Shown here: in pieces, positions 2,561 through 59,506 of the stretch
How positions within the stretch are numbered: position 1 is the first letter of the stretch
How the letters are laid out: each line of letters opens with the position of its first letter
NCBI GenBank assembly: GCA_022539475.1
Contig: VCMS01000138.1
Span: 78,479 to 142,478 of the forward strand
Length of the DNA stretch: 64,000 bases
Source: Gracilaria domingensis
Lineage: Eukaryota; Rhodophyta; Florideophyceae; Gracilariales; Gracilariaceae
Direction: 5' to 3'
The notes under the pieces: generated by a model
The model's input: only the letters and a program-made list of their open reading frames with translations
What the model was told of the DNA's origin: nothing
Database searches by the model: none
Program-made: the position numbers and the translations under genes

Positions 2561-4207
2561 CTAGTGCGGGAAGCATTTCGCCGTCGACTCTGCAGTCTTG
2601 TAAACGCACTTGCCACGATCGCAGCGCTTGGTACTGCACTCGAACTCATTGCTGCACGGGTCACACTCAGCAGCAAAGCATCTCCTCAACGACGCATCGC
2701 TTCCGTCCGTGCACTTCTGCGGCCTACCCCAGCACTTTCCCTGCTCACAGTCGCTGTCCTTGTCACACCTATCACATTCCTTCTTCTTGAAACACTTGGC
2801 CTCAGACTCCCTCGTGTCGAACACACACTTGCCAGACTTGCAACGTTTGGTGCTGCAGTCAAAGTCTGAAGAGCAAGCATCACATTCTGCGGCAAAACAC
2901 CTCATTAGAGAAGCATCAGTGCCGTCAGTACACTTTCCTCCCCAGCATTTGCCAGCAGAACACTCGGAACCTTTGCGGCAAGGTTCACATTCTCCCTTCA
3001 GCAGTCCACACTTCTCCCTCGATGCCGTAGTGTCAAAAATGCACACTCCAGACTCACAGAGCTTGGTGCTGCATTCGGTGTCCGAGGCGCAAGCATCACA
3101 TTCTGCAGCGAAACACCTCATTAGAGAAGCATCAGTGCCGTCAGTACACTTTCCTCCCCAGCATTTGCCAGCAGAACACTCGGAACCTTTGCGGCAAGGT
3201 TCACATTCTCCCTTCAGCAGTCCGCACTTCTCCCTCGATGCTGTATTGTCAAAGATGCATACTCCAGACTCACAGAGCTTGGTGCTGCAGTCGGTGTCCG
3301 AGGAGCAAGCATCACATTCTGCGGCGAAACACCTCATTAGAGAAGCATCAGTGCCGTCAGTACACTTTCCTCCCCAGCATTTGCCAGCAGCACACTCGGA
3401 ACCCTCACGGCAAGGTTCACATTCTCCCTTCAGCAGTCCACACTTCTCCCTCGATGCTGTAGTGTCAAAGATGCACACTCCAGACTGACAGAGCTTGGTG
3501 CTGCAGTCGGTGTCCGAGGAGCAAGCGTCACACTCTGCCGCGAAACAACGCTTCAAACTCGCATCAGTGCCATCGGTACACTTTCCTCCCCAGCATTTGC
3601 CAGCAGCACACTCGGAACCCTCACGGCAAGGTTCACATTCTCCCTTCAGCAGTCCGCACTTCTCCCTCGATGCCGTGGTGTCAAAGATGCATACTCCAGA
3701 CTCGCAGAGCTTGGTACTGCATTCCAAATCCGACGAACAATCGGCACACTCTGGTTCAAAGCATCTGGCCAAGGAGGCGGCGCTCTTATCGGTACATTTT
3801 CCGCCCCAGCAGCTTCCTTGCAAGCATTCGTCACCTCGAGAACACGGAGCACATTCTGGTTTCTTGAAGCACTTCTCCATGGAAGATTTGGTGTTGAAAA
3901 CACATTTGCCGCCCCAGCACTTTGTGGTTATGCATTCATTGGACTTGTTGCACGGATCGCACTCGGAGAGAAAGCATTTCGCCTTGGATTGCGCGGTGTC
4001 GAAGACGCAGCGACCTCCCCAACACTTGCGGGTGATGCACTGATACCTGGAGAAACATTGGGAACACTCCGACTTTCTGAACAAGAGTGCTCGATCGACG
4101 ATCTGTACCTCATGGTTCGGATTGTGAACGAGCGTGGTGGCGGCAGTGGCACAGACGAGGGTGGACAGGACGATGGCCAAGATGGACTTGACGTGGACGG
4201 CATGCAT
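2561..4207 (-). CDS. Secreted cysteine-rich repeat protein
   Basis: I start it at the ATG at 4207 rather than the first in-frame ATG (4444), because 4207 opens a clean signal peptide (MHAVHVKSILAIVLSTLVCA...) and lies about 95 bp downstream of a TATA-like element. The mature protein of about 525 residues is a string of Cys-rich modules of about 36 residues built on CxxC, CWGGKC, CxSGVCIFDT and CFxxEC elements. The pattern suggests many disulphides and an extracellular, cell-wall or vacuolar place. Four central double modules are nearly identical at DNA level (216-bp unit), so they multiplied recently. I do not recognise a named family; structural, protective and adhesive roles are all possible. 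Confidence 0.7.
   Translation of the reverse strand: MHAVHVKSILAIVLSTLVCATAATTLVHNPNHEVQIVDRALLFRKSECSQCFSRYQCITRKCWGGRCVFDTAQSKAKCFLSECDPCNKSNECITTKCWGGKCVFNTKSSMEKCFKKPECAPCSRGDECLQGSCWGGKCTDKSAASLARCFEPECADCSSDLECSTKLCESGVCIFDTTASREKCGLLKGECEPCREGSECAAGKCWGGKCTDGTDASLKRCFAAECDACSSDTDCSTKLCQSGVCIFDTTASREKCGLLKGECEPCREGSECAAGKCWGGKCTDGTDASLMRCFAAECDACSSDTDCSTKLCESGVCIFDNTASREKCGLLKGECEPCRKGSECSAGKCWGGKCTDGTDASLMRCFAAECDACASDTECSTKLCESGVCIFDTTASREKCGLLKGECEPCRKGSECSAGKCWGGKCTDGTDASLMRCFAAECDACSSDFDCSTKRCKSGKCVFDTRESEAKCFKKKECDRCDKDSDCEQGKCWGRPQKCTDGSDASLRRCFAAECDPCSNEFECSTKRCDRGKCVYKTAESTAKCFPH
2870..3730 (-). repeat. 216-bp tandem repeats inside the Cys-rich gene
   Basis: The same stretch (ctcattagagaagcatcag) begins at 2901, 3117 and 3333, exactly 216 bp apart, and a more diverged unit follows around 3549. 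Each unit encodes 72 residues (two Cys-rich modules), so copy-number change keeps the reading frame. Confidence 0.85.
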
Positions 4208-4301
4208 GGTGGTTGAGCGAACAGAAGAAGGGCCTCTGATGGTGAACGGAAGTGGCACAGAAGCGAGTGCAAGTGCAGACGTGATGGGAAAGGTTGTTGC
4301 C

Positions 4302-4309
4302 TTTTTATA
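4302..4309 (-). promoter_or_regulatory. TATA-like box of the Cys-rich gene
   Basis: On the minus strand this reads TATAAAAA, about 95 bp upstream of the ATG at 4207. Transcription would then begin near 4275. Confidence 0.45.
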
Positions 4310-5786
4310 GCGCATCTGGAGGCTGCAATCACAGGCGTGGAAGACATGATATCCGCAGGGCTGGAAGCTCTGCCAGCTGCGGTGTGCTCGGCAAAAGCGA
4401 GGCGAGGGGGGTGAAATTGGTGTTCCACCGTTGCGGTGAATCAATCAGCGAGCAAGTTATGTGAAACACAAAGGCGGCGAGGAAGGAGCGATATGAGAGG
4501 AAATGTTAGTGTCGGTCGGAGAACGGCATCGCGAAAGAAATTCAAAAAGCGCCTCGAAGCAGCACATGATGACTGTGTGGGCGGGTTTTGACAAGTTGGT
4601 TGAAAGGCGGGTTCGGGAAAAGCGACGAGGTGTTGGAGAGCTGTTGGGGGTGAGAGCTGTTAGGGCTGTTAGGGAGGTAGTGAACGATAGGCGAACAACT
4701 CTCAGGCGAGAGACGGGTGGGCTTGATTTGATCGAGCTCTCGATCGAGAGTGGGCGAAGAGGTGTTGTTCGCCAGGGTTCAAAGGTAAGGGTAGCGTTGG
4801 TATGCGGCGCGTGGAATCGTTCCGAGAATAAAAATACGAGCAGCTTGTTCATTTTTTTCAACACGCTTCTCGCTCTCGCCCTCTTTCTCTCGCGAGTGTA
4901 AATTGTGGCATGGGCTACAAGGGTAGGTTTGCAGGTCTCACCATGCGTGGGGGTCCACGGTCTCAGTTTTGACGGTCGCGAAGTGGCGCGCGACGGCGAA
5001 CGGAGCTGATCACGGGGTGTGGAACTGCCAAGCGCAGAGCGGTTAGGGTTTGGCTCGGCCTGATTCAAGGCGGTGCGGCGGCGCCATGCGGCGGCTGTCG
5101 CTGTCGCGGGCGGTTGACAGGGTGCGGCGTGTTTCCAAATGGCAAGCACTGTATGTTTGGCGGCGGGACAGCGCCGCCGTTGGGGAATGCGCGGCACACG
5201 CGCGACTGATTGGCGCACGCGGACGGCGGCGCGCGCGAGCGCGTCCGTTAGGCAGCAGCGGCCGTTAGCGGCGCGGCGAGCAATTCAAATCGCGCGGCGC
5301 CGCCGGCGACATCGCGTCGCCGCGTCGCCGCCGCGCTTACAGCGGCGCGTGGCGCGCGCGCGCGCGCGCGGGTACGGACGCGGCGCGTTTGAAATTCCAA
5401 TTCAAAACGCGCGCGCGCCGCCGCGCGAGACTGTTGGCGCGGCGGGCGCCGCCACGCCCGCGCGTTGGCGCTGCGCAGCGGCCGCGGCCGCCGGCTACGT
5501 ACGGCGGGGCGCCGGCGCGGCGCGCTGGCGGCCCCGGCCGCGCAGAGAGAGATCTCGGCGCAGATTGAGCGCAGTCAGTCAAGTTGCGTTTTCGGGGCTG
5601 TTTTACGGCAAACGAGTTATCACGAGTTGTAGTAAAAAGTAGCGGCAACCTGTCGTGTTGTCACACACGCTATATACAAAACAGAGTTGCCGTCGCGCGC
5701 GCGCGCGCGCGCGCGCGCGCAAGTTAGAACATTCATGAGCAGTATATACACAAAGCGGCAGCCGTCGGCAGGCGGCACGGCCGCGC
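4310..5786. other. Intergenic, strongly GC-rich toward 5.7 kb
   Basis: No supportable gene. Long ORFs here (for example 4457-5218 minus and 5139-5642 plus) are Arg/Ala/Pro low-complexity products of GC-rich DNA. Alternating CG tracts occur near 5350-5370 and, uninterrupted for 27 bp, at 5694-5720. Confidence 0.5.
5694..5720. repeat. (CG)n dinucleotide tract
   Basis: An uninterrupted CG alternation of 27 bp, just past the 3' end of the LPMO gene. Such sequence can adopt Z-DNA. Confidence 0.9.
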
Positions 5787-7304
5787 TCACTCGCTCCGGA
5801 TCAACAAGATCTTCACATCCATCTCGTAGTCGCCCGAGCTCACGTTGAGGTCAAACTCCCTATTCACAATGGCGTCCTCCCAGTAGTTGGGCGTGCGTCC
5901 GCGGTTTCCATACAAAAAGTACGGCCGGTTGCTCTCCTTCCAGATCCTCTTCCCGTCGACGCTAAAGTACACGCCGCCCAGCGTGCGCGACGTCACGGCT
6001 TCCAGCGACACCTTCTCATACGCGCTGATGTCCACAGCCTTGTCATCTCCCGGCAAAATCTCCGACACCAGCTGGCCGTCGGCGATCACCGCCACGTGCA
6101 GGAACGGAGAGCTGCCGGGCAGCTGCATGGAGGACGCAATCTGCTCCGCCGACACCACGGGAGAGCGCGGCACCATGGGAGTGGGCGTAGTGGTGGGCGT
6201 AGCGGTGGGCGTAGCGGTGGGCGTAGCGGTGGGAGTGACCGTAGGCGCTGGAGTGCCGGTAGGCGTGGCAGTGGCAGTGGCAGTGGGCGTGGGCGTGGGC
6301 GTGGGCGTGGGCGTGGGCGGCGTGTCATCGTCGTCCGATTGCATCAGCACGTCGTCGCGAGGGACAGATCGGCCGCCATCCACGCGGTCGATGCGGATGT
6401 CGGCGCACTGATAATACTCCTCGGGGAACGTGCGGCCGCCGCACGCAATCTGGTTCTTTGCGTAGCCGCCGACGGCGCCACCTTGGCCGCGGCACGAGCC
6501 CCAGTTGCGCGGCGCGTCGGCGCCCTCAAAGTAGTCGACCACGCCCGGCGGGTTGCAGGTGTTGGCCGACACCCAGTACCAGTGCAGCACGCAGTGCGAG
6601 CAGTACAGGTGCGCCGGCAGGCTCCACACCATGTAGTCGCCGCCAAACTCGTCAAAGCGGCCGCCGTTGCTGCACGGCAGGTACCAGCGGCCGCGGTGGT
6701 TGCGGTCGATGGGGCCGCAGCGCGTGGACATTCCCGAGTCGCACTCGGGCAGCGGCGTGCGCTGCAGCTGGATGCAGGCGTCGGTGCGCGTGAAGCACTC
6801 GTGCGAAATGTCGCCGCCGGGGCACTTGGAGACGTCGCACACGTGCACCTCGACGTAGCCGTTGTGGTGCGCGGTGATGGCGTTCTTCATGTGCACAAAG
6901 CCGCCCTGCGGGTAGGCGCGCGTGATGAGGCCGTCAAAGTAGTAGCGGCCGCCCTTGAGGTGCTCCTGCGTGCCGGCGGCCAGATCGCCGCACACGCCGG
7001 CGCGCCAGGTGAGGCGCGGGTCGAACGGGTTGAACGGCGTCCAGCTGCCGCGCGCCGCGCGCTCCTGCGAGCGCTTGCCGGCGCCCGGCGCGGTGCTCTT
7101 GTCGCCGGCGGGGAAGTGCGCGAAGAAGTCGACGGGCGCGTCGGCGATGGGCTGCAGCGAAGGCGCGAACTGGTTGCCGGCCAGGATGCCGCGCTGCGGC
7201 GGGTCGGACATGAGCCCGTGCGCGGCGGCGCGCGCGGCGAGCAGCAGGAGGGCGGCCGCGAGCGGCGCGCCCGATAGGGTGCAATTACGATTGGGCAGGA
7301 GCAT
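5787..7304 (-). CDS. AA15-type lytic polysaccharide monooxygenase
   Basis: 505 residues. A signal peptide (1-28) ends so that the mature protein begins with His29, as copper-dependent LPMOs require. A second His comes from the AHHNGYV segment (His146/147), and the catalytic domain ends in the Cys-rich block CSHCVLHWYW...WGSC...YYQCADI (about 235-303) typical of PF03067/AA15 enzymes. A Pro/Thr repeat linker follows (about 324-380), then a C-terminal domain of about 120 residues (383-505) that could bind carbohydrate but that I cannot name. The family oxidatively cleaves chitin or cellulose. A secreted role in remodelling or attacking wall polysaccharide is inferred; the substrate is not readable from sequence. 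The GC content is extreme, like that of the GT61 gene upstream. Confidence 0.85.
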   Translation of the reverse strand: MLLPNRNCTLSGAPLAAALLLLAARAAAHGLMSDPPQRGILAGNQFAPSLQPIADAPVDFFAHFPAGDKSTAPGAGKRSQERAARGSWTPFNPFDPRLTWRAGVCGDLAAGTQEHLKGGRYYFDGLITRAYPQGGFVHMKNAITAHHNGYVEVHVCDVSKCPGGDISHECFTRTDACIQLQRTPLPECDSGMSTRCGPIDRNHRGRWYLPCSNGGRFDEFGGDYMVWSLPAHLYCSHCVLHWYWVSANTCNPPGVVDYFEGADAPRNWGSCRGQGGAVGGYAKNQIACGGRTFPEEYYQCADIRIDRVDGGRSVPRDDVLMQSDDDDTPPTPTPTPTPTPTATATATPTGTPAPTVTPTATPTATPTATPTTTPTPMVPRSPVVSAEQIASSMQLPGSSPFLHVAVIADGQLVSEILPGDDKAVDISAYEKVSLEAVTSRTLGGVYFSVDGKRIWKESNRPYFLYGNRGRTPNYWEDAIVNREFDLNVSSGDYEMDVKILLIRSE

Positions 7305-7319
7305 TGTAGCGCGCGGGGT

Positions 7320-7378
7320 GTGTGTGGTTGGTGGAGGGGGGGGGCACGGGGTGTGTGTGGGTGTGTGTGTGTGTGGGA
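7320..7378. repeat. GT-rich microsatellite in LPMO 5' region
   Basis: Interrupted (GT)n and G runs immediately upstream of the LPMO start codon (7304), in the probable 5' untranslated region or promoter. Confidence 0.7.
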
Positions 7379-7860
7379 GCGGGCGCGCGGTCGCGAGGGG
7401 GCGGCGCTTTAAATGGCGGGCGGGGCGGAGCGGAACGAGCGCGCGGGCGGCGCGCAGCAGGGAGGCCGGCTGCGTACGCGTGAATCGGAGCCGAAATCAG
7501 AGGCGCGGCCGCAACGCAGGCGCGGCGGCGCGGCGCGGCGCGATAAGCGCGGCGCGCGGCGCGCGGCGGGGGGGACGGGGGGACGGGGGCGGGGGGGCGT
7601 GCGTGGGCGGCGGCGGCGGCGACGGACGCCAGCCGCCACGTTGCGCGCGCGAGCGTCGCGGCGCGCGCTACGCGGCGGCGCGCGCGCGCGGCGCGGCGGG
7701 CCGGCGCGGCCGTTCGCGGCGGCGCGCGCGGGCGCGGCCGCGCGCGGCGGTCGCGCGCGCACGGCGGCTGCGGCGCGGCGGAGCGCGGCGCGCGCGCGCA
7801 GCTTTGCTGGTTGCGCGCGGCGCATCGCGCGGCGCCGATTCGGCGACGCGCGCGCGGCCG

Positions 7861-9345
7861 TCAGCGCGCGCGCTGCGCCGCCAGCCAGCGCGACAGCGCG
7901 GCGGCCACGGCGCGCGGGCGCGCCGCCAGCCGCTGCGCGCGCAGGCAGCGGCGCGCGGCGTGCACGGCGGACACGTTGGCGCTGGCGGCGGCCAGCGCGG
8001 CGCCGTCCGGCGGCAGCGCGCGCAGCGCCGCCCAGCGGCGGAACAGCGCGGCGCGGCGGCGCAGGCAGCGCCGCACGGTGCGGCCGTCCGCGCGCGCCGT
8101 CGACAGCGCGTACGTCGCGTTGGTCCACGGCGCGAACGCGCGGAACGCGCGGAAGTTGTAGCCGAACGGGAACACGTCCACCACCAGCGCGCGCGGCCGC
8201 GCCAGCACCATGAGCCCCAGCGCGGCGCCGTGCGCGCCCACCACCACGTGCGCGCGCGCCATCAGCGCCGCCTGCCGCGCGAACGGCTCGTCCTCGAAGA
8301 ACGCCGCGCGCACGCGGTGGCACAGCGCCGCGCGCGACAGCGCGCGCGACAGCGCGTCGGCCACCGCGCGCATGTTGACCAGCTGCCGCGTGCGCCGCCG
8401 CCCGATCAGCAGCACCGACAGCCGCCGCGAGCACGGCGGCCGCGCGCGCGCAAGCTCCGCGTCCAGCGCGCGGCCGCGCGCCACGTCGCCCATCTCGAAC
8501 CACTCGCCGCCGGCCGGCACGCGGTCGCGCAGGCAGTCCGTCAGCACCGCGCTGCGGAAGCACACCACGCCGCCGCCGTCGCCGCCGTCGCCGCCGTCGC
8601 CGCCGCGCTCCTCGCGCGGGTCGTGCACGATGCGCACGCCCGGCACGCGGCGCAGCAGCAGCGCGATGGTGCCCTCGATCCACGCGATGCCGCGGTGCCG
8701 CCGCGGCACCACGTACACCGCGCGCGGCACGTCGCACAGCGCGCGCAGCACCGCGCTCGCGCACGCGCGCTTGAGGAACAGCGCGCGCACGTACACCGTC
8801 CACAGGAAGAACGGGATGTGCGCCGAGTACGACGCCACGTTCATCACGTCCGCCGCCACATAGCGCCGCTTGGCGCGCGCCGGCAGCTGCGCCGCGTCGC
8901 GGATGTACCAGCGCTTGCCCGAGTGCTGCGCCTGCGCGTAGTACTCGCCCGACTTTTCGAGGTGCATCTCGCAGCCGCCCTCCGCGCCTGCCGCCAGCGT
9001 GGACGCCACCTCCAGCGCGTGCTCAAAGTACAGAACGTCGTCACGCGTTGAAACGCACGGCCGCTCAATGCGGCACACGGAGCACTTGAACTGCTTGTTG
9101 GTCGTCGGCGTCAACCCGTGCACGCTCCAGTGTCCGTGTATCTTGCGCACACGTCCGCCGAGATCCGCCTGTTGCCGTCGCGCCGCGGTGCGCCGCGCGT
9201 CAACGTACGCCAGCAGCAGCCACGCCAGCCACGAGCCCGCGCAAACCAAGCACGCCGCCACGCACGGCCGCCGCAGCAACCGCCGCGCGCTCTTCTCCGC
9301 GCGCTGCAGTCGAAACCCAACGCCCGCAACCGCCTTCATCTTCAC
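7861..9345 (-). CDS. GT61-family glycosyltransferase, type II membrane
   Basis: 494 residues. A short basic cytosolic tail is followed by one membrane anchor (about residues 29-48), as in Golgi enzymes. The luminal part has the GT61 (DUF563) pattern: a Cys-rich N-terminal subdomain, then a catalytic half with a GAHGAALG motif (about 365-372) and the LARPRALVVDVFP and FRAF segments after it. Relatives transfer xylose, arabinose or O-GlcNAc to cell-wall polysaccharides or glycoproteins; the donor sugar cannot be told here. A Gly/Asp repeat (GGDGGDGGDGG) reflects a GCC/GTC run at about 8568-8600. It is in the same orientation as the LPMO gene, in the same GC island. Confidence 0.75.
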   Translation of the reverse strand: MKMKAVAGVGFRLQRAEKSARRLLRRPCVAACLVCAGSWLAWLLLAYVDARRTAARRQQADLGGRVRKIHGHWSVHGLTPTTNKQFKCSVCRIERPCVSTRDDVLYFEHALEVASTLAAGAEGGCEMHLEKSGEYYAQAQHSGKRWYIRDAAQLPARAKRRYVAADVMNVASYSAHIPFFLWTVYVRALFLKRACASAVLRALCDVPRAVYVVPRRHRGIAWIEGTIALLLRRVPGVRIVHDPREERGGDGGDGGDGGGVVCFRSAVLTDCLRDRVPAGGEWFEMGDVARGRALDAELARARPPCSRRLSVLLIGRRRTRQLVNMRAVADALSRALSRAALCHRVRAAFFEDEPFARQAALMARAHVVVGAHGAALGLMVLARPRALVVDVFPFGYNFRAFRAFAPWTNATYALSTARADGRTVRRCLRRRAALFRRWAALRALPPDGAALAAASANVSAVHAARRCLRAQRLAARPRAVAAALSRWLAAQRAR

Positions 9346-18356: not shown

Positions 18357-20144
18357 TCACTCCTCATCCATCAAAGCGGCTCGTCTTCCCTCAAAATACT
18401 TCCGAACGCCTCCTAATAAGCTTCTACAATCTCTCTGATGCTCCTCAAAAGCCAAGTTACACAGCTCTGTATTTTTAGTCCATCGTTCCTCATATCTCTT
18501 GCACATCTGCTTGTACTCGTTCATCTGATCTTCCAAATGCTTGAATTCCTTCAATCTACATCTCATCAACTCATGTAGTCGTTTCCGTTCAGCTTTGATT
18601 TTCTCACCGCCTTCCAAAACCATTTCATGTCGTTGTCGCAGCAATTCATTATTATGGCTTTTCTTTTCTTGATAGTCCGTCTCTAGTTTACTCTTCTTAG
18701 CCTCAAGCATCCCCAGAGAATGTCTTAAAAACATTAGACGCTCTTCAATCTCGTCACCACGTTCTTTCAATAAGTGAATCTCTTCTTGTAATTTTGGCGC
18801 CTTTGCTGCATATTCTTCCTTTTGTGCCATCAGTCTTGGAAGGATATCACCCTGCACATCCTTGTCTATCACAGCCTCTCGCAAATTGTCGTTCAAGTTG
18901 AGCTTAGTAATCCGTTCATCAAGCTGTAATGTTTCAATCGACTTATTGTACAACTTCAATATCTCCATTAGCTCGGCCTGTGCAATCGAAACCAGCTGTT
19001 GCGCGTCCGTACGTTCTGCGTCTGCATTCACGCGATCAGAAGAAGCCTTAGCGAGCGCTTTTCTGAGCATATCTCTGTCCGCCGACATTTGCTCCATATC
19101 AATCGCATCCTGTTCTTGACGATCCAATACTTCAGATAGTCTTTGCTTTTCTTCCTTCAGCTGGCTGATTTCGATATCTAAATCCGCAACCTCCGCCTCC
19201 TTCTCTCTCAAAAGCTTTCGCACTGCTTTAGCGTGTTCCATTAGCGAGGGAATGAGCAGCTTGAACTTTTTAATGTTTGTCGCAAGCGATTCCTTGTGCT
19301 CTAGAATAAGATTCAGGGGTGAAGGCTGCGTCTTCAAAGCTTGCAAGGTAGCGGCAAGCTGTTCCCGGTCTGATGAGAGCTTTTCAATCTCTCGTTCGCG
19401 ATTCTCGTTTTCGCCTGCAAAATGTTGCTCGAGCTCCTCATCAAGTTCGGGAAATGTATCTGCTCCTTTCAAGAATTGATCGTACGCCAGCTCAGTGTTT
19501 TCGGAAAACATCTTCTCGCGACGCGCCTGCGGATCCATAGTTGACCCAGAGGCCTGAGCAGCGATGTACGCCTCGCTATACTTGAGCATATTGACAAGCC
19601 ATGTAAGTACACCCAGCAGCGTGGGCCAAGTATGCGGCGAGCCAACAGCACTTAGCGCGCTCTTCGATATGGAGAACGGATAGCCAAGACCGCGCAGTAG
19701 CGCCGGAATCTCATCCTCAAAACGCTTGATGAAGTTGTACGTGGGGTCAAGACGGCGAACCAAGAACAGAAACAGCGTCTGAAAGTCTTTGGACGACGGA
19801 GAAGTAAGCATCTTTGGGGAGATAGGATGCTCGTAACCGCGCTCAATGACGAAGGAGATGAGTTCCTTCGCGCACTTGTGCATGTAGGAGCGGTCGTTGA
19901 GAGGACGTGGGTCGGTTCGTTTGACGGCCCTCGACAGCGCAAGCGACGAACGTGAAAGAGAACTCTGCCTGGTCTTCGCACCGCCCGTGGAACGCTTTCG
20001 GCCGAATGACGGGAATGCAGACGCACGACGATCCTCTGACGACTTGGAGGCCGCCAGACTGCCGCGCGCGCGCGAAGGAAGTCCGGCAGAAGAGCGACTG
20101 TTCATCTTGCTTCGCGAAAGTGCGCCAAGCGTGGAGCGTTCCAT
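18357..20144 (-). CDS. NDC80: Kinetochore protein NDC80 (HEC1)
   Basis: 595 residues from the ATG at 20144. The open frame continues upstream to 20372, but that part is a Pro-rich, promoter-like sequence. A basic Ser-rich tail (1-80) precedes the calponin-homology domain (about 85-210: DRSYMHKCAKELISFV, SKDFQTLFLFLVRRLDP, EIPALLRGLGYPFSISKSAL, SPHTWPTLLGVLTWLV), then about 350 residues of coiled coil. This is the standard layout of the outer-kinetochore microtubule binder, which pairs with NUF2 and the SPC24/SPC25 dimer. The basic tail is the expected microtubule contact and Aurora-B target. Length is close to that of other NDC80 proteins. Confidence 0.9.
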   Translation of the reverse strand: MERSTLGALSRSKMNSRSSAGLPSRARGSLAASKSSEDRRASAFPSFGRKRSTGGAKTRQSSLSRSSLALSRAVKRTDPRPLNDRSYMHKCAKELISFVIERGYEHPISPKMLTSPSSKDFQTLFLFLVRRLDPTYNFIKRFEDEIPALLRGLGYPFSISKSALSAVGSPHTWPTLLGVLTWLVNMLKYSEAYIAAQASGSTMDPQARREKMFSENTELAYDQFLKGADTFPELDEELEQHFAGENENREREIEKLSSDREQLAATLQALKTQPSPLNLILEHKESLATNIKKFKLLIPSLMEHAKAVRKLLREKEAEVADLDIEISQLKEEKQRLSEVLDRQEQDAIDMEQMSADRDMLRKALAKASSDRVNADAERTDAQQLVSIAQAELMEILKLYNKSIETLQLDERITKLNLNDNLREAVIDKDVQGDILPRLMAQKEEYAAKAPKLQEEIHLLKERGDEIEERLMFLRHSLGMLEAKKSKLETDYQEKKSHNNELLRQRHEMVLEGGEKIKAERKRLHELMRCRLKEFKHLEDQMNEYKQMCKRYEERWTKNTELCNLAFEEHQRDCRSLLGGVRKYFEGRRAALMDEE

Positions 20145-21099
20145 CCCAGCCGCGGGTGAAATGGGCGACGGAGATGAGCTGAGTCGGACGGTATGGATGG
20201 GGCGGCTGGGCTGTCGGGGAAGGGGAATGAGGGGAGGCCGTTGGGGAATGGTGATGGGAGAAGGAGGGGGTGTGGGCGCGCACGAGTGGCAACTGCGCTG
20301 GCGCACGCGACGAGGACGAACCAACGCGGACGGCAGTGGTGCTCGAGAGCTGGGAGCGCAACGCGATGGCACCAGTTTTCAAATTTTAAACTTTTGAAAC
20401 GGGCAGCGCGTTCTAGTGTGCGTTACACAGCGCGTAGTACGCGCCGCGTACCTTACATGCTCTTACCCGCGTAAGCCACGTCGAAGGTAAGTGATGCGCC
20501 GTCGCCCTCCCATCGGTTGCACCTCCTTTGTCTGCACGCCCTCACCATAAGCATGTCTTCTTCATCGCATGTCCTGCTTCAAGCGCTCGCCATCCGCTTC
20601 ATGTTTTGCTTCTGCTGTCTATGAATCGGTGCGCGATTACAGCAAATACGATCTTGAAGCACCATAACCTATCGGTACCGTCGTGCTTGTGCCATTCAGA
20701 AGATTCCAGTAGATCCAGGAGGGCTTTTTCAAACCGTTGGTGCGTGATGCGTTTGTGCGTCTCAAACGGACAAACAAATATTGGAACGGGATCAACTGTT
20801 CCAAGCTATAGGTTCCAAGTCCGTCCTGCCCTTAGGATAGTCCCAGTTATGAAACGACGAAACTGCCATCGGCACTACGTTTGCCCAGTGCGCCCTGCGC
20901 ACGTGTGAACGTGGCCGCTCGTAAGCGCCAGCGCCTTGCACCGAAGAAGAAGGGCGACCGCGCTCAGCAGCACAAGCGCCTAGATATGTACCGACGGTAC
21001 CCGTCGCCGCGCGTCTTCCACAAAACACATGAACCATGTGAACCAAGCATGCGTCACAACTTTCCCCCACCCCGCGTCAAATCTCAGCCCCAACACAAG
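20145..21099. other. Divergent intergenic region NDC80 / Hint gene
   Basis: About 950 bp with both promoters. Inverted repeats: 20430-20444 (GCGCGTA-G-TACGCGC), 20781-20804 (arms TTGGAAC), a CGGTACCGTCGTGC motif at 20673-20686 and GTACCGACGGTACC at 20988-21001. The open frame upstream of the Hint gene start (from 20881) is basic low-complexity and I treat it as 5' untranslated. Confidence 0.5.
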
Positions 21100-22353
21100 A
21101 TGCGCCGCCACACACTCCGCGCCTCGCTGCTTGCGTTCGCGCTTCACATGCTGCTGCCATTCGCGCACGCCATCTCGCTTGCCGCCGTGCGCATTCAAAC
21201 CACGTTCTTTCTGCTGCCATCCGCGGGCATCTGCCCGCAAACCATAACGCACGAGCGTCTTGCGCTGTACCGCGGCATCAACGCGGCCGATCCAAACGGC
21301 ACGTACGACGGCATTCTGTGGGACGATCTTGAGATCAATGGGCAGCCGTGCATCTCTCTCCACGACTCGCTACATTCAACGTTCTTCGAAGCGCAGCCAA
21401 CACCGCCGCCAGCGTCGCCGTCCGACACGCAGTCGCCCTGGTTCCTCATCGGCACTGACAACGCGCCGCGTCGCTGTCGCGCGTTTTCAACGCCTCTGCG
21501 CGCTTCGTACTTGTTCACCGACGACTTACCTCGCTTTCGCGCGCGACTGGTGCGCGACGGGCTGTTGCAAGCGGACGTGGCGACGGAGGCGAAGCGCGAC
21601 ACGCTGTTTATGTTCTCGGTTCCGTTCTCAAACGAAGGTACTCTACAAGGGCCGCCGTGCACGTACGTTGAAGAAGACGACGCGCAGGGCGCTGTGTCCG
21701 TGGTGGACGCGGCAAACGCCAACGACGAACCCGACGTGGAGCTGGTGCCCACGCCCGACGGGCAGCGCGGCGAGGGCGCGGCGGGCGGCGACGACGGGCC
21801 GGCGTGCGTGGCGGGCGACGTGCAGGTGGTGCTACGCGACGGGCGGTTGCGGCGCGTCGACGCGCTGCGCAGAGGCGACGCGGTGCAGGGCGCGGTCGAC
21901 GGCGATACGGTGGTGTCGTTCAGCCACGCCGACGCGTCGTTCGACGCGACGTTCATCGAGCTGTGGGTGCGGCTGTACGACGAGCGGGACGGCGCGTCGG
22001 AGCGCGCGGCGAGGGAGGTGCGGCTGAAGGTGACGGAGGACCACCTGCTGCTGGCGCGCGACGGGCGGCCGTTCGCGGCGCGGCGCGCGGCGGCGGGCAC
22101 GCGGCTGCGCGCGGTGGGCGGCGTGGCGGCGGTGGTGAACGCGACGCGGAGGGTGCGCGGGCGCGGCGTGTGGGCGCCCGTGACGGAGCAGGGCGTGATG
22201 GTGGTGCGCGGCGGCGTGGTGCTGAGCTGCTACAGCGCGGCGGTGGCGGAGCGCGTGGCGCACGCGCTGCTGGCGCCCGTGCGCGCGTTCCGCGTGCGGC
22301 GGTGGGACTGGGGCGTCGACGCGGCGCGCTGCGCGCGGCGGCTGCTTCATTGA
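21100..22353 (+). CDS. Secreted protein with C-terminal Hedgehog-type Hint (Hog) domain
   Basis: 417 residues from the ATG at 21100, chosen because it opens a signal peptide (MRRHTLRASLLAFALHMLLP, cleavage after FAHA). An unfamiliar N-terminal domain of about 200 residues follows. The C-terminal part from Cys236 is a Hint module: nucleophile in ACVAGDVQVVLRDGRLRRVDALRRGDAVQ, a T-x-x-H motif in VTEDHLLLA (Thr312, His315), and a closing GVWAPVTEQGVMVVRGGVVLSCYS that parallels the end of Hedgehog Hog domains. The family performs autocatalytic cleavage before the Cys, joining a nucleophile such as cholesterol to the N-terminal product. After the Hint core only about 40 residues remain, short for a sterol-recognition region. 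GC content climbs sharply in the Hint half. Confidence 0.8.
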   Translation: MRRHTLRASLLAFALHMLLPFAHAISLAAVRIQTTFFLLPSAGICPQTITHERLALYRGINAADPNGTYDGILWDDLEINGQPCISLHDSLHSTFFEAQPTPPPASPSDTQSPWFLIGTDNAPRRCRAFSTPLRASYLFTDDLPRFRARLVRDGLLQADVATEAKRDTLFMFSVPFSNEGTLQGPPCTYVEEDDAQGAVSVVDAANANDEPDVELVPTPDGQRGEGAAGGDDGPACVAGDVQVVLRDGRLRRVDALRRGDAVQGAVDGDTVVSFSHADASFDATFIELWVRLYDERDGASERAAREVRLKVTEDHLLLARDGRPFAARRAAAGTRLRAVGGVAAVVNATRRVRGRGVWAPVTEQGVMVVRGGVVLSCYSAAVAERVAHALLAPVRAFRVRRWDWGVDAARCARRLLH

Positions 22354-22694
22354 AGCAGCCGCGTGTGCGGCGGCGGCGCATCCACGTAGCCGCCGCAGCA
22401 ACGGCGCCGGCCGGGCCGGCGTTGATACGAAGCGGCTCTACCTTTGGTCAAGTTATCTAGATACGCGCCAAAGCGATCGCCACGCGTCGGTCAAAAATAG
22501 AGCCGTTTTGCGCTTGCGTGTGCGCAGCGAGGCGAGGCGCAGACGCAAGCGCGGCTGCTTCCCACCACGTTGCTCACCCGCCTCCCTCCGCCCCTTCCCC
22601 TCCTTTGTTTATGCACGCCTCGCTTCCCCGCCCCCCTCCGCGTCCTCCCATCCCCCCCCTTCCCCGCCCCCCATCGCGCCTCGCCCCCCCCGCC
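22354..22694. other. Intergenic / 5' leader
   Basis: 340 bp. The frame of the downstream gene stays open to 22518, but the encoded Pro/Ser-rich stretch looks like pyrimidine-rich leader rather than protein. A C-rich run lies just before the ATG at 22695. Confidence 0.4.
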
Positions 22695-25946: not shown

Positions 25947-27186
25947 TTGGCGAGCAAACGTGACGTTCAAGCAGCGTATGAAGTTCTTTTTTTTTTTGTT
26001 CTCATTGCATTCGAAACGTGCGAATTAGCTACCAAGGGTACGTCGGAATCATGTGCTGCGGGCCGATATCTGGATGAAACTGGCGAATGTCTGGATTGCC
26101 CACTGGGTTTCTATCAACCGCTCCCTGACCAGAACGGATGTCTCAAGTGTCCTGAGACTTCGTACACCCCAGCGGAAGGGGCGACAAGCTGCGACGAATG
26201 TCTCGAGAACCAAGTGGCAAATGTGAACAAAAATGGATGTAGGTGTAGACCAGGCTTCAAACCAGGTTCACTTGATCGTGTGCCCATTTCATGTGAAGCA
26301 TGCGCTCCGGGTTTCCATTTGCTAAGCTCACCATTTATGGGAATCTATCTTTGTACGGAATGTTCCGCTAATACGTTCACCTCCGAGTTTGCCCAAACTA
26401 AGTGCAAACCGTGCCCCGAAGGTCAATCTGCACCTATAGGATCTGATAGATGCTATTCATGTGAGCCAGGCGAAATATTCACCGAAGGCAAATGCACCAA
26501 GTGCCCCGCCGGCTTTGAGAACTACAGCGGAGGATGCAGTCCATGCCGACCTGGTTTCTACAAACCAGTCGAAGGTTCGTATCCCTGTTTGCCATGCCCG
26601 CAATTCATGGTCGCGAACGAAGGTGCCACGGAATGCGTTAAGCCATGTCCTGGTGATGAAATCCTGATAAGCAGTAGCGTGACCGGGGAGGACGTCTATT
26701 GCGGTAAGTGCCCTGCTGGAAGTCGTCTTGACGTAACATATTCGCCTCCGATTTGCTCACAGTGCTCTCACAATCAGTTTATGCCATACGAGAACACGAG
26801 AACGTCCTGTTTTCGATGCGCAGGGGACAAAGTTGGTCGATACGCTCAAGGCTCGACGGAATGCGTTTGTAGAGAAGCGCTTGTCAACGGAACTTGCAAT
26901 GTTTGTGAGTCCTCTGCTGGTGATGGGTACTGAGGACTAGAAGGAGACGTTCCGGTTTCGACATGTGGTTCACACAGAGGCCATCGCAGACTCAAATTGT
27001 CATTTATGCGAAGTTGATTTCGTGACAACTTCACTGCCCTTAGTACTGGTCATTGCGATCTCAGTTTTGCCGGCAAGTACCACTAATGCTGCAAACATCA
27101 TGTTGACTTCGATAAAACGAAAGATTCAAATCATGTGGCAAAGTATGCGTAAGACGAAGAATGGCCGAAGCCATTATATTTATTGA
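25947..27186 (+). CDS. Ephrin-receptor-like Cys-rich single-pass membrane protein (spliced)
   Basis: Exon 25947-26904 encodes about seven Cys-rich modules of the GCC2/GCC3 (Ephrin_rec_like) type: repeated CxxCPxGxY..., EGATxC, CxPCPxG. A GTGAGT donor at 26905 and AG acceptor at 26988-26989 remove an 85-bp intron holding the in-frame stop at 26934. The frame then continues through NCHLCEVDF, a hydrophobic span (SLPLVLVIAISVLP) and a basic tail to the stop at 27186. So it is a receptor- or adhesion-like type I membrane protein. The start is unclear: the frame is open from 25944 without an ATG. The ATG at 25978 would give a good signal peptide only if the 11-T run at 25987-25997 were one base longer or two shorter, or if an upstream exon exists. 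Confidence 0.6.
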
Positions 27187-37733: not shown

Positions 37734-39059
37734 TTACAAGAGGTCCAATTCATCTAACGCAGAGTACACGGCTTCCATTTGTCGCTCTGTGCCCATGGAT
37801 ATTCGTATGCAATCCGTCAAACCAGGCGCGGTATAGTAGCGTATCAAGATGCCGCGATCAGCAAGTTGTTGCTTAATCTGCGCAGCATCGCGGCCTTCTC
37901 CAACTCGGCAGAGCACGTAATTCGATTGCGACGGATAGGGTGTGAGCCATTGATACTTTTCAATCTTGTTATAGAATATGTGGCGTTGGCGGACCACGCG
38001 GTCGACCTTCTCCAACAAATCATGTTTTTCCCTGATGGACGCTATGGCGGCAACCTGACCGGCGACAGACACGTTGTAAGGCTGCTTGATTTTCCACATA
38101 TGCTTCATGATTGGGAGAGGAAAGGCTCCGTATCCAACGCGCATGCCCGCCAGTGCAGCCCACTTAGAAAATGTTCGCAGCACGACAAGATTATCGTGAG
38201 AGGGAACCCATGAAAGCATGCTGACGTTGGCAAATTCAAAATATGCTTCATCGATGACAACCACTGTTGGAAGGGCAAGAAGACGCTTGAGATCATTTTC
38301 TGGCAATAAACTACCGTCCGGGTTATTCGGACTGGCGACAAAAAGAAGCTTTGGAGGAGCACGCTCTTCAGCGAACACACGTTCAATGGCAGTGATATCC
38401 ACCGCAAAATCAGAGCGTCTAGGTACGTTAATAATACGGGCGCCGTTTACATCGGCGTCAAACCTGTACATGCCAAAGGTAGGTGGACAATTGATGATAC
38501 TGTCGTCGGTACCAGGCGTGACAAACAGTCGAAACAACAAGTCGATGAGCTCATCAGCGCCGGCACCCGCCATGATATACTCCTTCGGCACACGGGCATA
38601 ATCCGCAATAGCGTCTCGCAAGAAAGACGACTCAGGGTCCGGATAAATGTGGAGGTACTTTGCGTCTGCAAGCGCGGTCGCCACGGACGGCGCAGGACCG
38701 AAGGGATTCTCGTTGGCATCGAGTTTGACAATCTCTGAAGGGTGGCGACCGAGCTTTTCGGCAAGCACTTCGTACGGGACAATGGGCGAGTATGGGGCGA
38801 TTTGACGGAGCGCGGGCCGGATAGATTCTTCGGGCGAGAAGCTCTTGGTGGGGTTCATCACGGCCTTCGGGGACAAGCGTGGCTGCACCGAGGGCGTTGC
38901 GGCGGGCGTGGAGCTGGAGCGGGAGAGCCGAAACGGCAAGCATGTCTGGAACGCCGGCGCAGACGAGATCATTGTGGAGCTGGCTCGGAGGTGCGTACGT
39001 GCTTGACGCAAGTGGTGATGCATTGAGCTAACGCAGACTGGGAGCGGATCAACCTTCAT
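37734..39059 (-). CDS. Histidinol-phosphate aminotransferase, plastid-targeted
   Basis: A fold-type I PLP aminotransferase of the HisC family: KLDANENPFGPAPSV, YPDPESSFLRDAIADY, MAGAGADELIDLLFRLF, SPNNPDGSLL, VIDEAYFEF, RTFSKWAALAGMRVGYG (with the PLP-binding Lys) and the C-terminal IRISMGT substrate-binding Arg. It catalyses the aminotransfer step of histidine synthesis, from imidazole-acetol phosphate and glutamate. The enzyme begins near PALRQIAPYSPIVPYEVL, so the Ser/Arg/Pro-rich 75-85 residues before it fit a plastid transit peptide. I start at the ATG at 39059; 39023 and 38972 are alternatives and the frame is open to 39386. It is divergent from IST1. Confidence 0.85.
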   Translation of the reverse strand: MKVDPLPVCVSSMHHHLRQARTHLRASSTMISSAPAFQTCLPFRLSRSSSTPAATPSVQPRLSPKAVMNPTKSFSPEESIRPALRQIAPYSPIVPYEVLAEKLGRHPSEIVKLDANENPFGPAPSVATALADAKYLHIYPDPESSFLRDAIADYARVPKEYIMAGAGADELIDLLFRLFVTPGTDDSIINCPPTFGMYRFDADVNGARIINVPRRSDFAVDITAIERVFAEERAPPKLLFVASPNNPDGSLLPENDLKRLLALPTVVVIDEAYFEFANVSMLSWVPSHDNLVVLRTFSKWAALAGMRVGYGAFPLPIMKHMWKIKQPYNVSVAGQVAAIASIREKHDLLEKVDRVVRQRHIFYNKIEKYQWLTPYPSQSNYVLCRVGEGRDAAQIKQQLADRGILIRYYTAPGLTDCIRISMGTERQMEAVYSALDELDLL

Positions 39060-39472
39060 CGGTCCGATAGATCGGGGGGGTGAAACGAAGTGTCGACGCG
39101 GCCGACGCAGCGACGTGGCCGCGTGGCCACGACGAGAGAGAGGCGCAAGGTGGTGTAAGCAGGTGAAGGGGAAAAAGCGGGTGTAAAAATTTATGGCGCA
39201 CCAGCCAAGGGGTGGCAACAAACTTGTTGGCGTGCTGGAGCGCACGTACCTTGCTGGCGCTCCGCCCTCAGCTGCACTTGCCGCGCTGGTCAACGCCGCG
39301 TGCGCCCGCGCTTTTAACGAGTCCGGCCGACACTCGTCGCTTCCTCGACAACAGCTCGCGCTCTCATAACTCACCGCGCCTTGCAAGCGCGCCGCTTCTG
39401 CACTTGCCTCTGCCCAACACCAACTCCCAGCCCCTCCCCCTACCGCCCACCCGCTTACGGTCGCCCGCCGAG
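39060..39472. promoter_or_regulatory. Bidirectional promoter region HisC / IST1
   Basis: About 410 bp between two divergent ATGs. An AT-rich patch at 39185-39200 (CATAAATTTTTA on the minus strand) is the only TATA-like element and faces HisC. The IST1-side leader is pyrimidine-rich just before its ATG. Confidence 0.4.
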
Positions 39473-56061: not shown

Positions 56062-57406
56062 GGTTGGCTTTCGGTTAGAAGAGTAGATGAAGAGAACCCT
56101 GGGATACACGATGGACAGGAGTACCCCAATGGGTGATGCACTTTCGTCGGTGGTTTAGAAGCTGATAGTTTCGCAGCGGAAGAGATATACAGTGTAGACG
56201 GTTCGTTTCTCCAGGTGCAAACAGCCTGCTGGGTTCTTGGACGTGTCCGAAAGAAGCTGGCGGGGAAATGAAAGCAGAAGCAAAAGACTCCGGGAACATG
56301 TGAATCACCGGTTGGTTGCGAAGGGGGCTCAGTCTGGGGCATTTACAGTGAATGGTTTTTTGCTCCCTTCGCGTTTCTCTTTTGCGGCTGTCTCCGGGGA
56401 GATGCGGAAAATAGCGCGTAGTTATTACTTGGGTTATTACAGTCAATGAAAACAGTTTATTAGAAAATAGTGCAGTACACGTCATAGCTTACAAAATAGC
56501 AGCGAAACACAAGTTCAATAAATTTATAGGCTCCAGAGAAAATTTATTGCGGTGGTCTCTTCGTCCTCTGTGACGGTGTCACGGCCTCTTACACGCCTAA
56601 TAGTTTGGTTCCTATTCAACGTGTAACACTCCTTATGAGGGTATACAATGAATACAAGAGCAAGCGCCCATTTAGAGTGAACTGACAGTCAGTTACTAAT
56701 GCAAGCACAGTGTGAGTCGCACACGTAGTCCTTCCAGGACCAACCGATTCGCGAGATACGCTCCCAAAAACGAGCCTCAAGTTGCACGATTATATCGGTC
56801 ATGCGTTGCCCCTAGCAAATAGTTTACTTCACTTGAATGCATTGGCGCACAGACTTCTCTTCATATCGCAATACCGACATGATTCACGCAACTACCGTCC
56901 TCTCCAACCTGCTAAACGTCACCGTCAGACCCATTTCTATTGACCTTGTTCTTTGTACTTTTCACGCGACATTGGGTGACAACATAGTACGTTAAAGCAT
57001 TGGTGAACATCTTTTTCAATCATCAGCCTGCTTCATATCCGTAGACAATCGTAGCGCTCTTTTAAGCACGCAGTCTTCCACGTCGCGAAAAGCCGGTCAA
57101 AAACGAAGCTGGTAGCCTTCCGAATGTTTTATTCTCCAACGAGACGCTGACAAAACTTCAATAACCGACAACTTTTGCACAACTTGCAATAGTTGTAACT
57201 GGAGAACAAAGTCGAGTAATACGAATGCCACCTAACTTTGGCAACATTTGTTAAAATGTTCATTTACTCCGCCGCACACAATCTTCCGCCTCCTCAAGTC
57301 CTCTCCATCTCTAGCTCGCTCTTACCAAAGCCGAGGATTCTCCTTTAAGTGTTTCGGAATACCTCTAACGCCGGCTAGACGACGTCGTGAAAGTTCGGGA
57401 GCTTCT
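56062..57406. other. Intergenic upstream of the hAT transposase ORF
   Basis: About 1.3 kb. I looked for terminal inverted repeats or an 8-bp duplication that would bound the transposase to the right and found none. The frame of the transposase stays open to 57248 without an ATG. Confidence 0.4.
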
Positions 57407-59506
57407 ATGTCCCACTTCCAGGCGACACAACCGCATACAGTTGCTGCTGTTGCGTCTCATTCGGGGAACAGGGCGGTCGTTTCTCGTGAGCAAAACGGGT
57501 TTGCAGCCAAACTAACCCGATTTAATGAGCTGCTGTCGCTGCTGGTGGTGAACCATATGCTCCTCTTCAGCACTTTGACTCGTAAGGAGGACGAAAACGA
57601 GCTTTATCAGCTCATAAGGCTGCTTGATCTACGTATGGAGGAACACGTACCAACGATATCTCGAATAGCAGGTAAGAATATCAATGCATACTACGAGAAA
57701 ATACTGACGTTTTTCAAGTGCGCAATTACGTCCTCGCTGAGTCAAACTTATGTCATATTAATCTTTGATGGGTGGACCGACGCTAGCACTGAGAATGTTA
57801 CTAATGTACTTCTCAGTATAACAGGTATAAAGCGGCCCAGGAAGACGTACTTTCTACGATCAATTTACACGGGGTCGTCTAATTGCGACTCGTCACTCTA
57901 CGCGGACGTGGTAGAATCTGTCTTCTTGCAGTTTGATGAAATGGGACGCATAACGGCCGTCATAAGTGATAATACGAGCTCGTGCGTGAAGGCCAAAGAG
58001 CAGCTTTCTAGGAAACACAATCACATTATTCCCGGCCAGGACCAGACCCATGTATCGAATTTGTTAATGCAGGATGTGGGGCAGCTTCAATGGGTAAGTG
58101 AAATTCTGAACACAGTATCTGGAATTGTCAGCGACATGCGGAAACAGTCGAAGCTCTACTTCCGCTTTAAACAACTGAAAGAACAGTACAACAACAACCT
58201 CCGCAATAGTGGATACGAGACATCTCACCGAGAGCTGGACGAATATGGTAGGGTTCGTCCGCTGAGAACAACAGTTTTGCCTATGCTGATGGCTACTAAA
58301 AGATTTGCTAGTTCTGAGGGGATGCTTTGTTCTTTTATAAGAGGCCAGAATGTTTCTCGGGAACTTGTGGACTGTCCAGACTTTTCCAAAACCTTGTACG
58401 GTGGAAGACGTTCGGACAAACGAGATCATTTCGAGGCTACAATTAGAGACAACACCCTCTTTACCAAGTGCCTGGACTTGTACTATGCCTTCCGACTAAT
58501 GCGACATTACTTACGCATCTTTGACGAAGAGACCTCTGTTATATCTCAGGTCTACCCCGCAACGAAGCAGTTGCAACGTGAGCTATGTTCTTTGCCTTTG
58601 ACTCCTTTTTTCACTGCAGAGAGAGAGGAGCAAATCATGAGTTGCTTTCGTGGTCGTCTAGATGAAGAAGGTCGAAAGATACCACTGCTAAGATCTCTAC
58701 ATTATGCCGCGTACTTTTTGGACATACGAAGTACTAATGATGAGTGCGCTGAATATAGTGCGCCAATTCTGAAACATATCCGATCATATGTCGAATCTAA
58801 TGTGTTTCCACCGACACAGAAGCTAACGAGTTCTGGAGGTGTAGATGGGGCCGTACACCGTCTCTTTGAGAAGCTTAATTATGTTCGTCTATCTTGGAGG
58901 GCGCAGGCAGACAACCCTGCTCAGAGAGACGTACTTATGGCTTTCAAGAATATCCCCGTGGTGTACTGGATGAAGTACAGGGAAAGTCCTACACTGAGGG
59001 ACTTTGCTCTTCGTATATTATCGGTAAGTCCATCCACCTCCAGCGTAGAGAGAAGTTTCAGTCTCCAGGGGACAATAAGAACTCCCACTCGAAACAGACT
59101 TCACCCAGTGAAGGTGGAGAAGATGATCTTTTGCGCCTTTAATCTGGCTCTCACCTCCCGGAAACGGAGCGGCATGATCGACAGGCGTAGAGCAAACACC
59201 GGTTATTCTACTCAGCAGCAGGTCTCTGTATCTGTTCACCAGAACGCGACTGGAACAGCTTCACAAGTGCTGGATTCTACAGCTACCGTGGGCTCTGCGG
59301 CACAAGCACAGACACCGGAAATGACCCCCGGTAACACAGAAGATTTTGTGTCGTACTTCGAGGTGGACAATGAAATCGAAACCTATGATGACGACGTCGT
59401 TGGGGAAGGGGCGAATGTAGACTATAGCTTTTCGGATATGGATGATGACGACGATGAAAGCGGGCAGCTTCCCGACTCTGCTGTTATGCGTCGTCTATTT
59501 GCATAG
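57407..59506 (+). CDS. hAT-family transposase, intact ORF (possibly domesticated)
   Basis: 699 residues, uninterrupted from the ATG at 57407. RNase-H-like core: LIFDGWTDASTENVTNVLLS (first Asp), TAVISDNTSSCVKAKEQL (second Asp), and the late Glu in SVERSFSLQG. The C-terminal hAT dimerisation region reads LRDFALRILSVSPSTSSVERSFS...KVEKMIFCAFNLAL. An acidic tail (YFEVDNEIETYDDDV, DMDDDDDESG) ends the protein. No BED zinc finger is visible at the N-terminus, although most active hATs have one. It is not closely similar to the dead element at 28-30 kb. No terminal repeats were found, so it may be a host-adopted gene or a copy whose ends I missed. Confidence 0.75.
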   Translation: MSHFQATQPHTVAAVASHSGNRAVVSREQNGFAAKLTRFNELLSLLVVNHMLLFSTLTRKEDENELYQLIRLLDLRMEEHVPTISRIAGKNINAYYEKILTFFKCAITSSLSQTYVILIFDGWTDASTENVTNVLLSITGIKRPRKTYFLRSIYTGSSNCDSSLYADVVESVFLQFDEMGRITAVISDNTSSCVKAKEQLSRKHNHIIPGQDQTHVSNLLMQDVGQLQWVSEILNTVSGIVSDMRKQSKLYFRFKQLKEQYNNNLRNSGYETSHRELDEYGRVRPLRTTVLPMLMATKRFASSEGMLCSFIRGQNVSRELVDCPDFSKTLYGGRRSDKRDHFEATIRDNTLFTKCLDLYYAFRLMRHYLRIFDEETSVISQVYPATKQLQRELCSLPLTPFFTAEREEQIMSCFRGRLDEEGRKIPLLRSLHYAAYFLDIRSTNDECAEYSAPILKHIRSYVESNVFPPTQKLTSSGGVDGAVHRLFEKLNYVRLSWRAQADNPAQRDVLMAFKNIPVVYWMKYRESPTLRDFALRILSVSPSTSSVERSFSLQGTIRTPTRNRLHPVKVEKMIFCAFNLALTSRKRSGMIDRRRANTGYSTQQQVSVSVHQNATGTASQVLDSTATVGSAAQAQTPEMTPGNTEDFVSYFEVDNEIETYDDDVVGEGANVDYSFSDMDDDDDESGQLPDSAVMRRLFA

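Follow-up and report, generated by a model that had tools for sequence, protein, structure and literature searches.

The open frame at positions 21100..22353 of the + strand, on which the features described below also lie, raises a question of identity and of function: Does this frame (417 codons and a TGA stop, taken as a single exon) encode a true autoprocessing protein of the Hedgehog type, as an earlier note made from the DNA letters had claimed, and if so, what would the protein do with the part that precedes its Hint module? The window, by which we mean the whole stretch of 64,000 nt that was analyzed, has the gene content of a eukaryote and contains many long uninterrupted frames. At the Hog locus the overlapping frames are long too, reaching 301 codons on the opposite strand, and codons 226-417 of the Hog frame have a GC3 of 0.97. 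In such GC-rich DNA, with other long frames around, an open frame is by itself weak proof of a gene, and one might argue that the present one arose by chance from base composition. We consider this practically negligible as an explanation, since the product matches the Hedgehog Hint module of Pfam (PF01079) with an E value of 4.3e-13, none of five controls (residues 226-417 in four shuffled versions, and the full protein reversed) has a Pfam match, and the catalytic set of residues is present in order. The start codon is uncertain, because two more in-frame ATGs lie upstream of 21100, at 20986 and 21049.

The match to PF01079 reaches 49.8 bits for the full protein, against a curated cut-off of 29.7, and aligns residues 235-398 with positions 12-180 of the 213 in the profile, thereby placing the Hint module at residues 236 to ~398 (21805..22293). 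A profile check had been named beforehand for the Hint/Hog assignment, and its outcome bears the assignment out: On its own, the fragment 226-417 reaches 53.3 bits. Local alignment to the Hog part of fly Hedgehog has a score of 90, compared with a mean of 30.3 (SD 5.0) and a maximum of 52 in 500 shuffles; in a further pairwise alignment the identity to fly Hog is low (29%). Among PDB sequences, phmmer returned up to E 10 a sole and weak match, fly Hedgehog 6td6_B (E 0.0024, residues 350-398). Other classes of Hint-bearing proteins do not fit equally well. For Vint, PF14623 stays at 12.7 bits, below its cut-off of 27, and no VWA domain is matched in Pfam; no intein family appears among the profile matches of the protein, and the frame ends 40 residues past the cysteine of motif J, which is not the arrangement of an intein with a C-terminal extein. 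Searches with the Hog protein found no relatives in viral contigs, prokaryote genomes or phage records, nor did its alignment with fly Hog, used as query, find any in viral contigs or prokaryote genomes; these five scans carry little weight, because no eukaryote genome collection was among them.

The catalytic residues singled out in the earlier note (C236, T312, H315 and the motif S376-C377-Y378-S379) are located where it had put them. Their conservation was evaluated by rescoring single substitutions against the PF01079 profile, taking as baseline the 53.3 bits of fragment 226-417. Cys236 (21805..21807), the predicted nucleophile, occupies profile position 13, equivalent to Cys1 (C258) of fly Hog, and its change to alanine lowers the score to 49.4 bits (-3.9) and shifts the start of the match four residues later. 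Within the block B motif T312-E-D-H315 (TxxH, 22033..22044), T312A leaves 50.5 bits (-2.8) and H315A 49.8 bits (-3.5), while in motif J (22225..22236) C377A leaves 48.2 bits (-5.1) and C377S 48.7 bits (-4.6). The equivalent changes in fly Hog, starting from 246.1 bits, give 241.0 for C1A (-5.1), 242.1 for T69A (-4.0), 239.3 for H72A (-6.8) and 241.0 for C143A (-5.1), so that C236, T312 and H315 each lose fewer bits than the matching fly positions. In the pairwise alignments to fly Hog, T312 and H315 do not fall on T69 and H72, and it is the profile, together with the motif as such, that supports the assignment of TxxH. With this qualification, the profile treats Cys236, Thr312, His315 and Cys377 as conserved, and the claim that the Cys, Thr and His positions are kept finds agreement in both the profile alignment and the substitution drops. 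The scissile bond predicted from the position of the nucleophile is probably Ala235-Cys236.

These results bear also on the view that the Hint module has decayed, in which case the protein would not cut itself and would stay whole. The low identity to fly Hog and the single weak match in the PDB would be in keeping with decay, yet the four catalytic positions that were tested are intact and penalized when changed, and the frame has remained open for 417 codons; hence, we judge a decayed module to be quite improbable. Modeling adds little here. The single-sequence AlphaFold2 model of the Hint part has a low mean pLDDT of 37.0, and among the 167 matches that the PDB fold search returned for it up to E 10 there is none at E <= 0.001, and no Hint protein in the 50 matches listed; because the Hint model is so poor, we do not take this search as evidence either way.

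Upstream of the module, the protein begins with a putative signal peptide (residues 1-24, 21100..21171), recognized by hydropathy and inspection. The five most hydrophobic windows of 19 residues start at residues 8-12 and are followed by A-H-A at 22-24, immediately before I25, and the sixth falls in the Hint part, at residue 365; the Hog protein is probably secreted. The N-terminal part that would follow the signal peptide (residues 25-235, 21172..21804) has four cysteines (45, 84, 126 and 187), one N-glycosylation sequon (N66) and, from about residue 190, a linker that is first acidic and then Gly-rich. It matches nothing up to E 10 in either Pfam or the PDB sequences, so that neither a Hedge domain, in agreement with the earlier note, nor a kelch domain is found in it; the only NCBIfam match of the full protein is far under its cut-off (12.9 vs 166). 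The same note had spoken of an undescribed N-terminal domain, and this holds only insofar as no match is found in Pfam or the PDB. A single-sequence AlphaFold2 model of residues 25-205 has a low mean pLDDT of 32.7.

The base composition of the gene changes along its length, with a GC3 of 0.75 up to codon 210 and of 0.98 beyond it, a step that lies 25 codons before Cys236. The log-likelihood ratio of this step is 26.0, a value that 0 of 1000 permutations reach, their largest being 11.0. A grafted module was considered on this basis and dropped: Ratios above 11 are found also in 6 of the 11 other genes of the window that were compared, which were taken as listed open frames, may contain some untranslated 5' sequence and had no permutations of their own. 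For this reason the step is not used as evidence of grafting.

The general base of fly Hedgehog is Asp303, Asp46 of the module (PMC9163320). Both pairwise alignments to fly Hog place His276 (21925..21927) at this position, F-S-H against F-M-D, and the profile panel is consistent with His276 lying at or near it. At position 276 the profile gives 53.3 bits with His, 53.8 with Asp (+0.5), 52.5 with Asn as well as Lys (-0.8 each) and 51.6 with Ala (-1.7). At fly position 46 the values are 246.1 bits with Asp, 246.2 with His (+0.1), 243.7 with Asn (-2.4), 243.1 with Lys (-3.0) and 242.4 with Ala (-3.7). The order of residues is nearly the same in the two proteins, Asp and His being about equal, followed by Asn and Lys and then by Ala, with smaller steps in the Hog protein studied here. 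Because the profile scores His much like Asp, a histidine at the general-base position is probably a common natural state within the family. According to a review, fly Hog with the change D303H retains structure and activity and has a broader range of sterols (PMC9163320). Asp278, two residues past His276, may also play a part, as D278A costs 0.8 bits.

The earlier note had put the length of the C-terminal tail at about 40 residues, and exactly 40 are counted after C377, 31 fewer than the 71 that follow the SCY cysteine in fly Hog. Past the SCY motif lies A387-H388-A-L-L-A-P393-V-R395 (22258..22284), which aligns with AHWGLAPMR of fly Hog and to which we give the name motif K on the grounds of this sequence (AHALLAPVR) and of its location. 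What remains, residues 396-417 (22285..22350), has no detectable motif L: The profile match stops at position 180 of 213, the HWY of the sterol recognition region is not detected, and neither is HWY seen by eye in the three translated frames over ~600 bases past the Hog stop. A compact second helix, with W404 standing for the HWY tyrosine and L415/L416 for the later leucines, was tried and rejected, as 1080 of 2000 shuffles score at least as well as the last 22 residues do in their best ungapped match to the second helix of the fly protein. The first helix is altered as well, for fly Hog has leucines 1, 5 and 9 residues past the motif-K arginine where the present protein has Ala396, Arg400 and Trp404. 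In human SHH, the first-helix leucines L382, L386 and L390 are needed in cells as a set, and cholesterolysis requires the second helix with H433 and Y435 (PMC7242414); the replacement of the leucines thus argues against a docking to membranes like that of SHH.

The main rival to transfer to a sterol-like alcohol is cleavage by hydrolysis alone, that is, cutting without tagging: For want of a complete adduct-recognition region in the tail, water or a small thiol would resolve the thioester and the N-terminal part would simply be freed. This proposal draws on the shortness of the tail, on the missing motif L and the replaced leucines, and on the report that Hh proteins lacking the SRR undergo cleavage with no cholesterol attached (PMC7242414). 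Set against it are the retention of motif K, which would presumably be needless for plain proteolysis, and the description of untruncated red-algal and moss Hogs by motifs J and K, with no mention of motif L (Burglin 2008, PMC2362128). A tail with motif K only may therefore be normal for algal Hogs. We regard cleavage without tagging as possible, though somewhat doubtful. The step of the earlier note from a short tail to an adduct other than cholesterol stands only in part: The second helix with HWY is indeed undetected, but motif K is present and human SHH deprived of its 32-residue connector works like wild type, both helices being needed (PMC7242414).

The reading that we prefer, with moderate confidence, is that of a Hog protein outside Hedgehog proper, which would cut itself ahead of Cys236 and join its N-terminal part to a sterol-like alcohol. 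The signal peptide would bring the protein into the ER, where the Hint module would fold; Cys236 would then attack the carbonyl of Ala235 in an N-S acyl shift aided by T312 and H315. An alcohol, most likely a sterol, would subsequently attack the thioester, with His276 in the general-base role of Asp46, and the N-terminal part (residues 25-235) would be released with the alcohol esterified to Ala235, hence remaining associated with the membrane or the wall; it may have an extracellular function. Of all this, the sequence analysis shows the module, its catalytic positions and motif K, and the remaining steps are inferred. In favor of this sequence of events are the PF01079 score well over the cut-off with no match in the controls, the losses at C236, T312, H315 and C377 that are penalized as in fly Hog, the retained motif K, the profile order at His276, like that of fly position 46, and the activity that fly Hog keeps with D303H. 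We count also in its favor that cholesterol was the most abundant compound isolated in a survey of Madagascan red algae (PMC4515612). Against the same reading are the undetectable motif L with its HWY and the missing first-helix leucines, the alignment of T312 and H315 by the profile only, with drops below those of fly Hog, the low pLDDT of the models of both halves with no Hint protein among the listed fold matches, and the lack of relatives in the viral, prokaryote and phage collections. A variant with a histidine base and a compact tail with motif K only, which would place something other than cholesterol, such as another sterol or a lipid alcohol, on a secreted domain of unseen fold, seems to us rather unlikely.

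In comparative terms, the protein has the features of a Hog (Hint/SRR or Hint/ARR) protein, namely PF01079, the N-terminal Cys of the module, TxxH (by profile only), motif J and motif K, whereas of the features of Hedgehog proper no Hedge domain and no motif L with HWY are detected, and His276 stands at or near the place of the general base Asp46. It shares with metazoan Hedgehog (fly Hh, 6td6_B and 1at0) the Cys nucleophile, TxxH, SCY and motif K, while differing from it by the absence of the Hedge domain, by a His at or near the place of Asp46 and, with respect to the fly protein, by its shorter tail without detectable motif L. Hog sequences have been known in five red algae (Chondrus, Griffithsia, two of Porphyra and Gracilaria) and also in mosses, alveolates, a haptophyte, a cryptophyte, a jakobid, a cercozoan and a fungus (Burglin 2008, PMC2362128). 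Their N-termini are diverse and often cysteine-bearing, with signal peptides in those cases whose start can be placed with some confidence, and the same work postulates that a secreted Hog protein was ancestral (PMC2362128). Like the red-algal non-Hh Hogs of that work, the present protein combines an upstream part without known family with a Hint/Hog module and motifs J and K. The layout is not a surprise, since red-algal Hogs with lineage-specific N-termini were published in 2008 (PMC2362128). One difference lies in motif J, where the untruncated red-algal and moss Hogs have Ser, Thr or Asp (PMC2362128) and the present protein keeps the cysteine (C377), a comparison made by description only.

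Among red algae, Hint modules without a Hedge domain are also present in the Hog and kelch+Hog proteins of Cyanidiophyceae. In Cyanidiales, combinations of kelch, trefoil and Hint occur in subtelomeres (PMC9812998) and Hogs form gene families (PMC9812998, PMC13353863); most Hogs of Cyanidiophyceae are subtelomeric and multigene (PMC13353863). In Cyanidiococcus yangmingshanensis, 8 of the 10 Hog genes are expressed mainly in haploid cells, and in C. merolae some Hog genes carry H3K27me3 (PMC13353863; PMC5405695, respectively); the 2026 paper on Cyanidiophyceae still calls the function of Hogs unknown (PMC13353863). Unlike the kelch+Hog proteins, the present one has no kelch match in Pfam, and unlike the mostly subtelomeric and multigene Hogs of Cyanidiophyceae neither of its halves recurs in the window, where the other tblastn matches have E values of 0.99 or worse. 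Its gene adjoins instead that of Ndc80 (18357-20300 as scanned, PF03801, E 2.2e-46), which lies on the opposite strand.

Other neighbors encode TruD, a HisC-type aminotransferase, IST1, PCO/ADO, a CLC channel, PEMT, a TPT-type transporter and a hAT transposase, the last in a frame of 752 codons at 57248-59506 with DUF659 and hAT dimerization matches. The HisC-type protein (37734-39386) matches 8bj4 and 8bj1 with E values of 3.5e-117 and 5.3e-117, the next solved sequence being 7szp at 4.7e-47; 8bj1-8bj4 we take to be a legume enzyme, and the match suggests a gene of plant or algal type without pointing to any one group of algae. For the CLC protein the best solved match is 7jm6, and CmCLC (3org), presumably a red-algal protein, comes eighteenth of 47, a rank that speaks neither for nor against a red alga. 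The source is thus a eukaryote and perhaps an alga, and the gene content does not single out the red alga of the earlier note. No tRNA genes were found, and Rfam at gathering thresholds gave no match. Elsewhere in the window, a GC-rich island at 5787-9345 has an LPMO_10-like protein (PF03067, E 3.9e-07) next to a GT61 glycosyltransferase (PF04577, E 3e-08), with GC3 values of 0.89 and 0.95. An open frame at 2561-4444 contains tandem cysteine-rich repeats of the ECSAGKCWGGKC type with no Pfam match at E 0.001, and a cysteine-rich protein at 25947-26933 has ephrin-receptor-like repeats (PF07699, E 6.4e-17) and an NCD3G match. A perfect inverted repeat of 12 bases with a 1-base loop (22338-22362) spans the stop codon of the Hog gene.

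Judged by its sequence, the Hog protein is real, one more Hog of an already known kind, with a few unusual details. It is in these details that its value lies: With the tested catalytic positions and the cysteine of motif J intact, a His at or near the place of the base, and a tail that is very short, it offers a small protein on which to examine what portions of a Hog tail determine the adduct.
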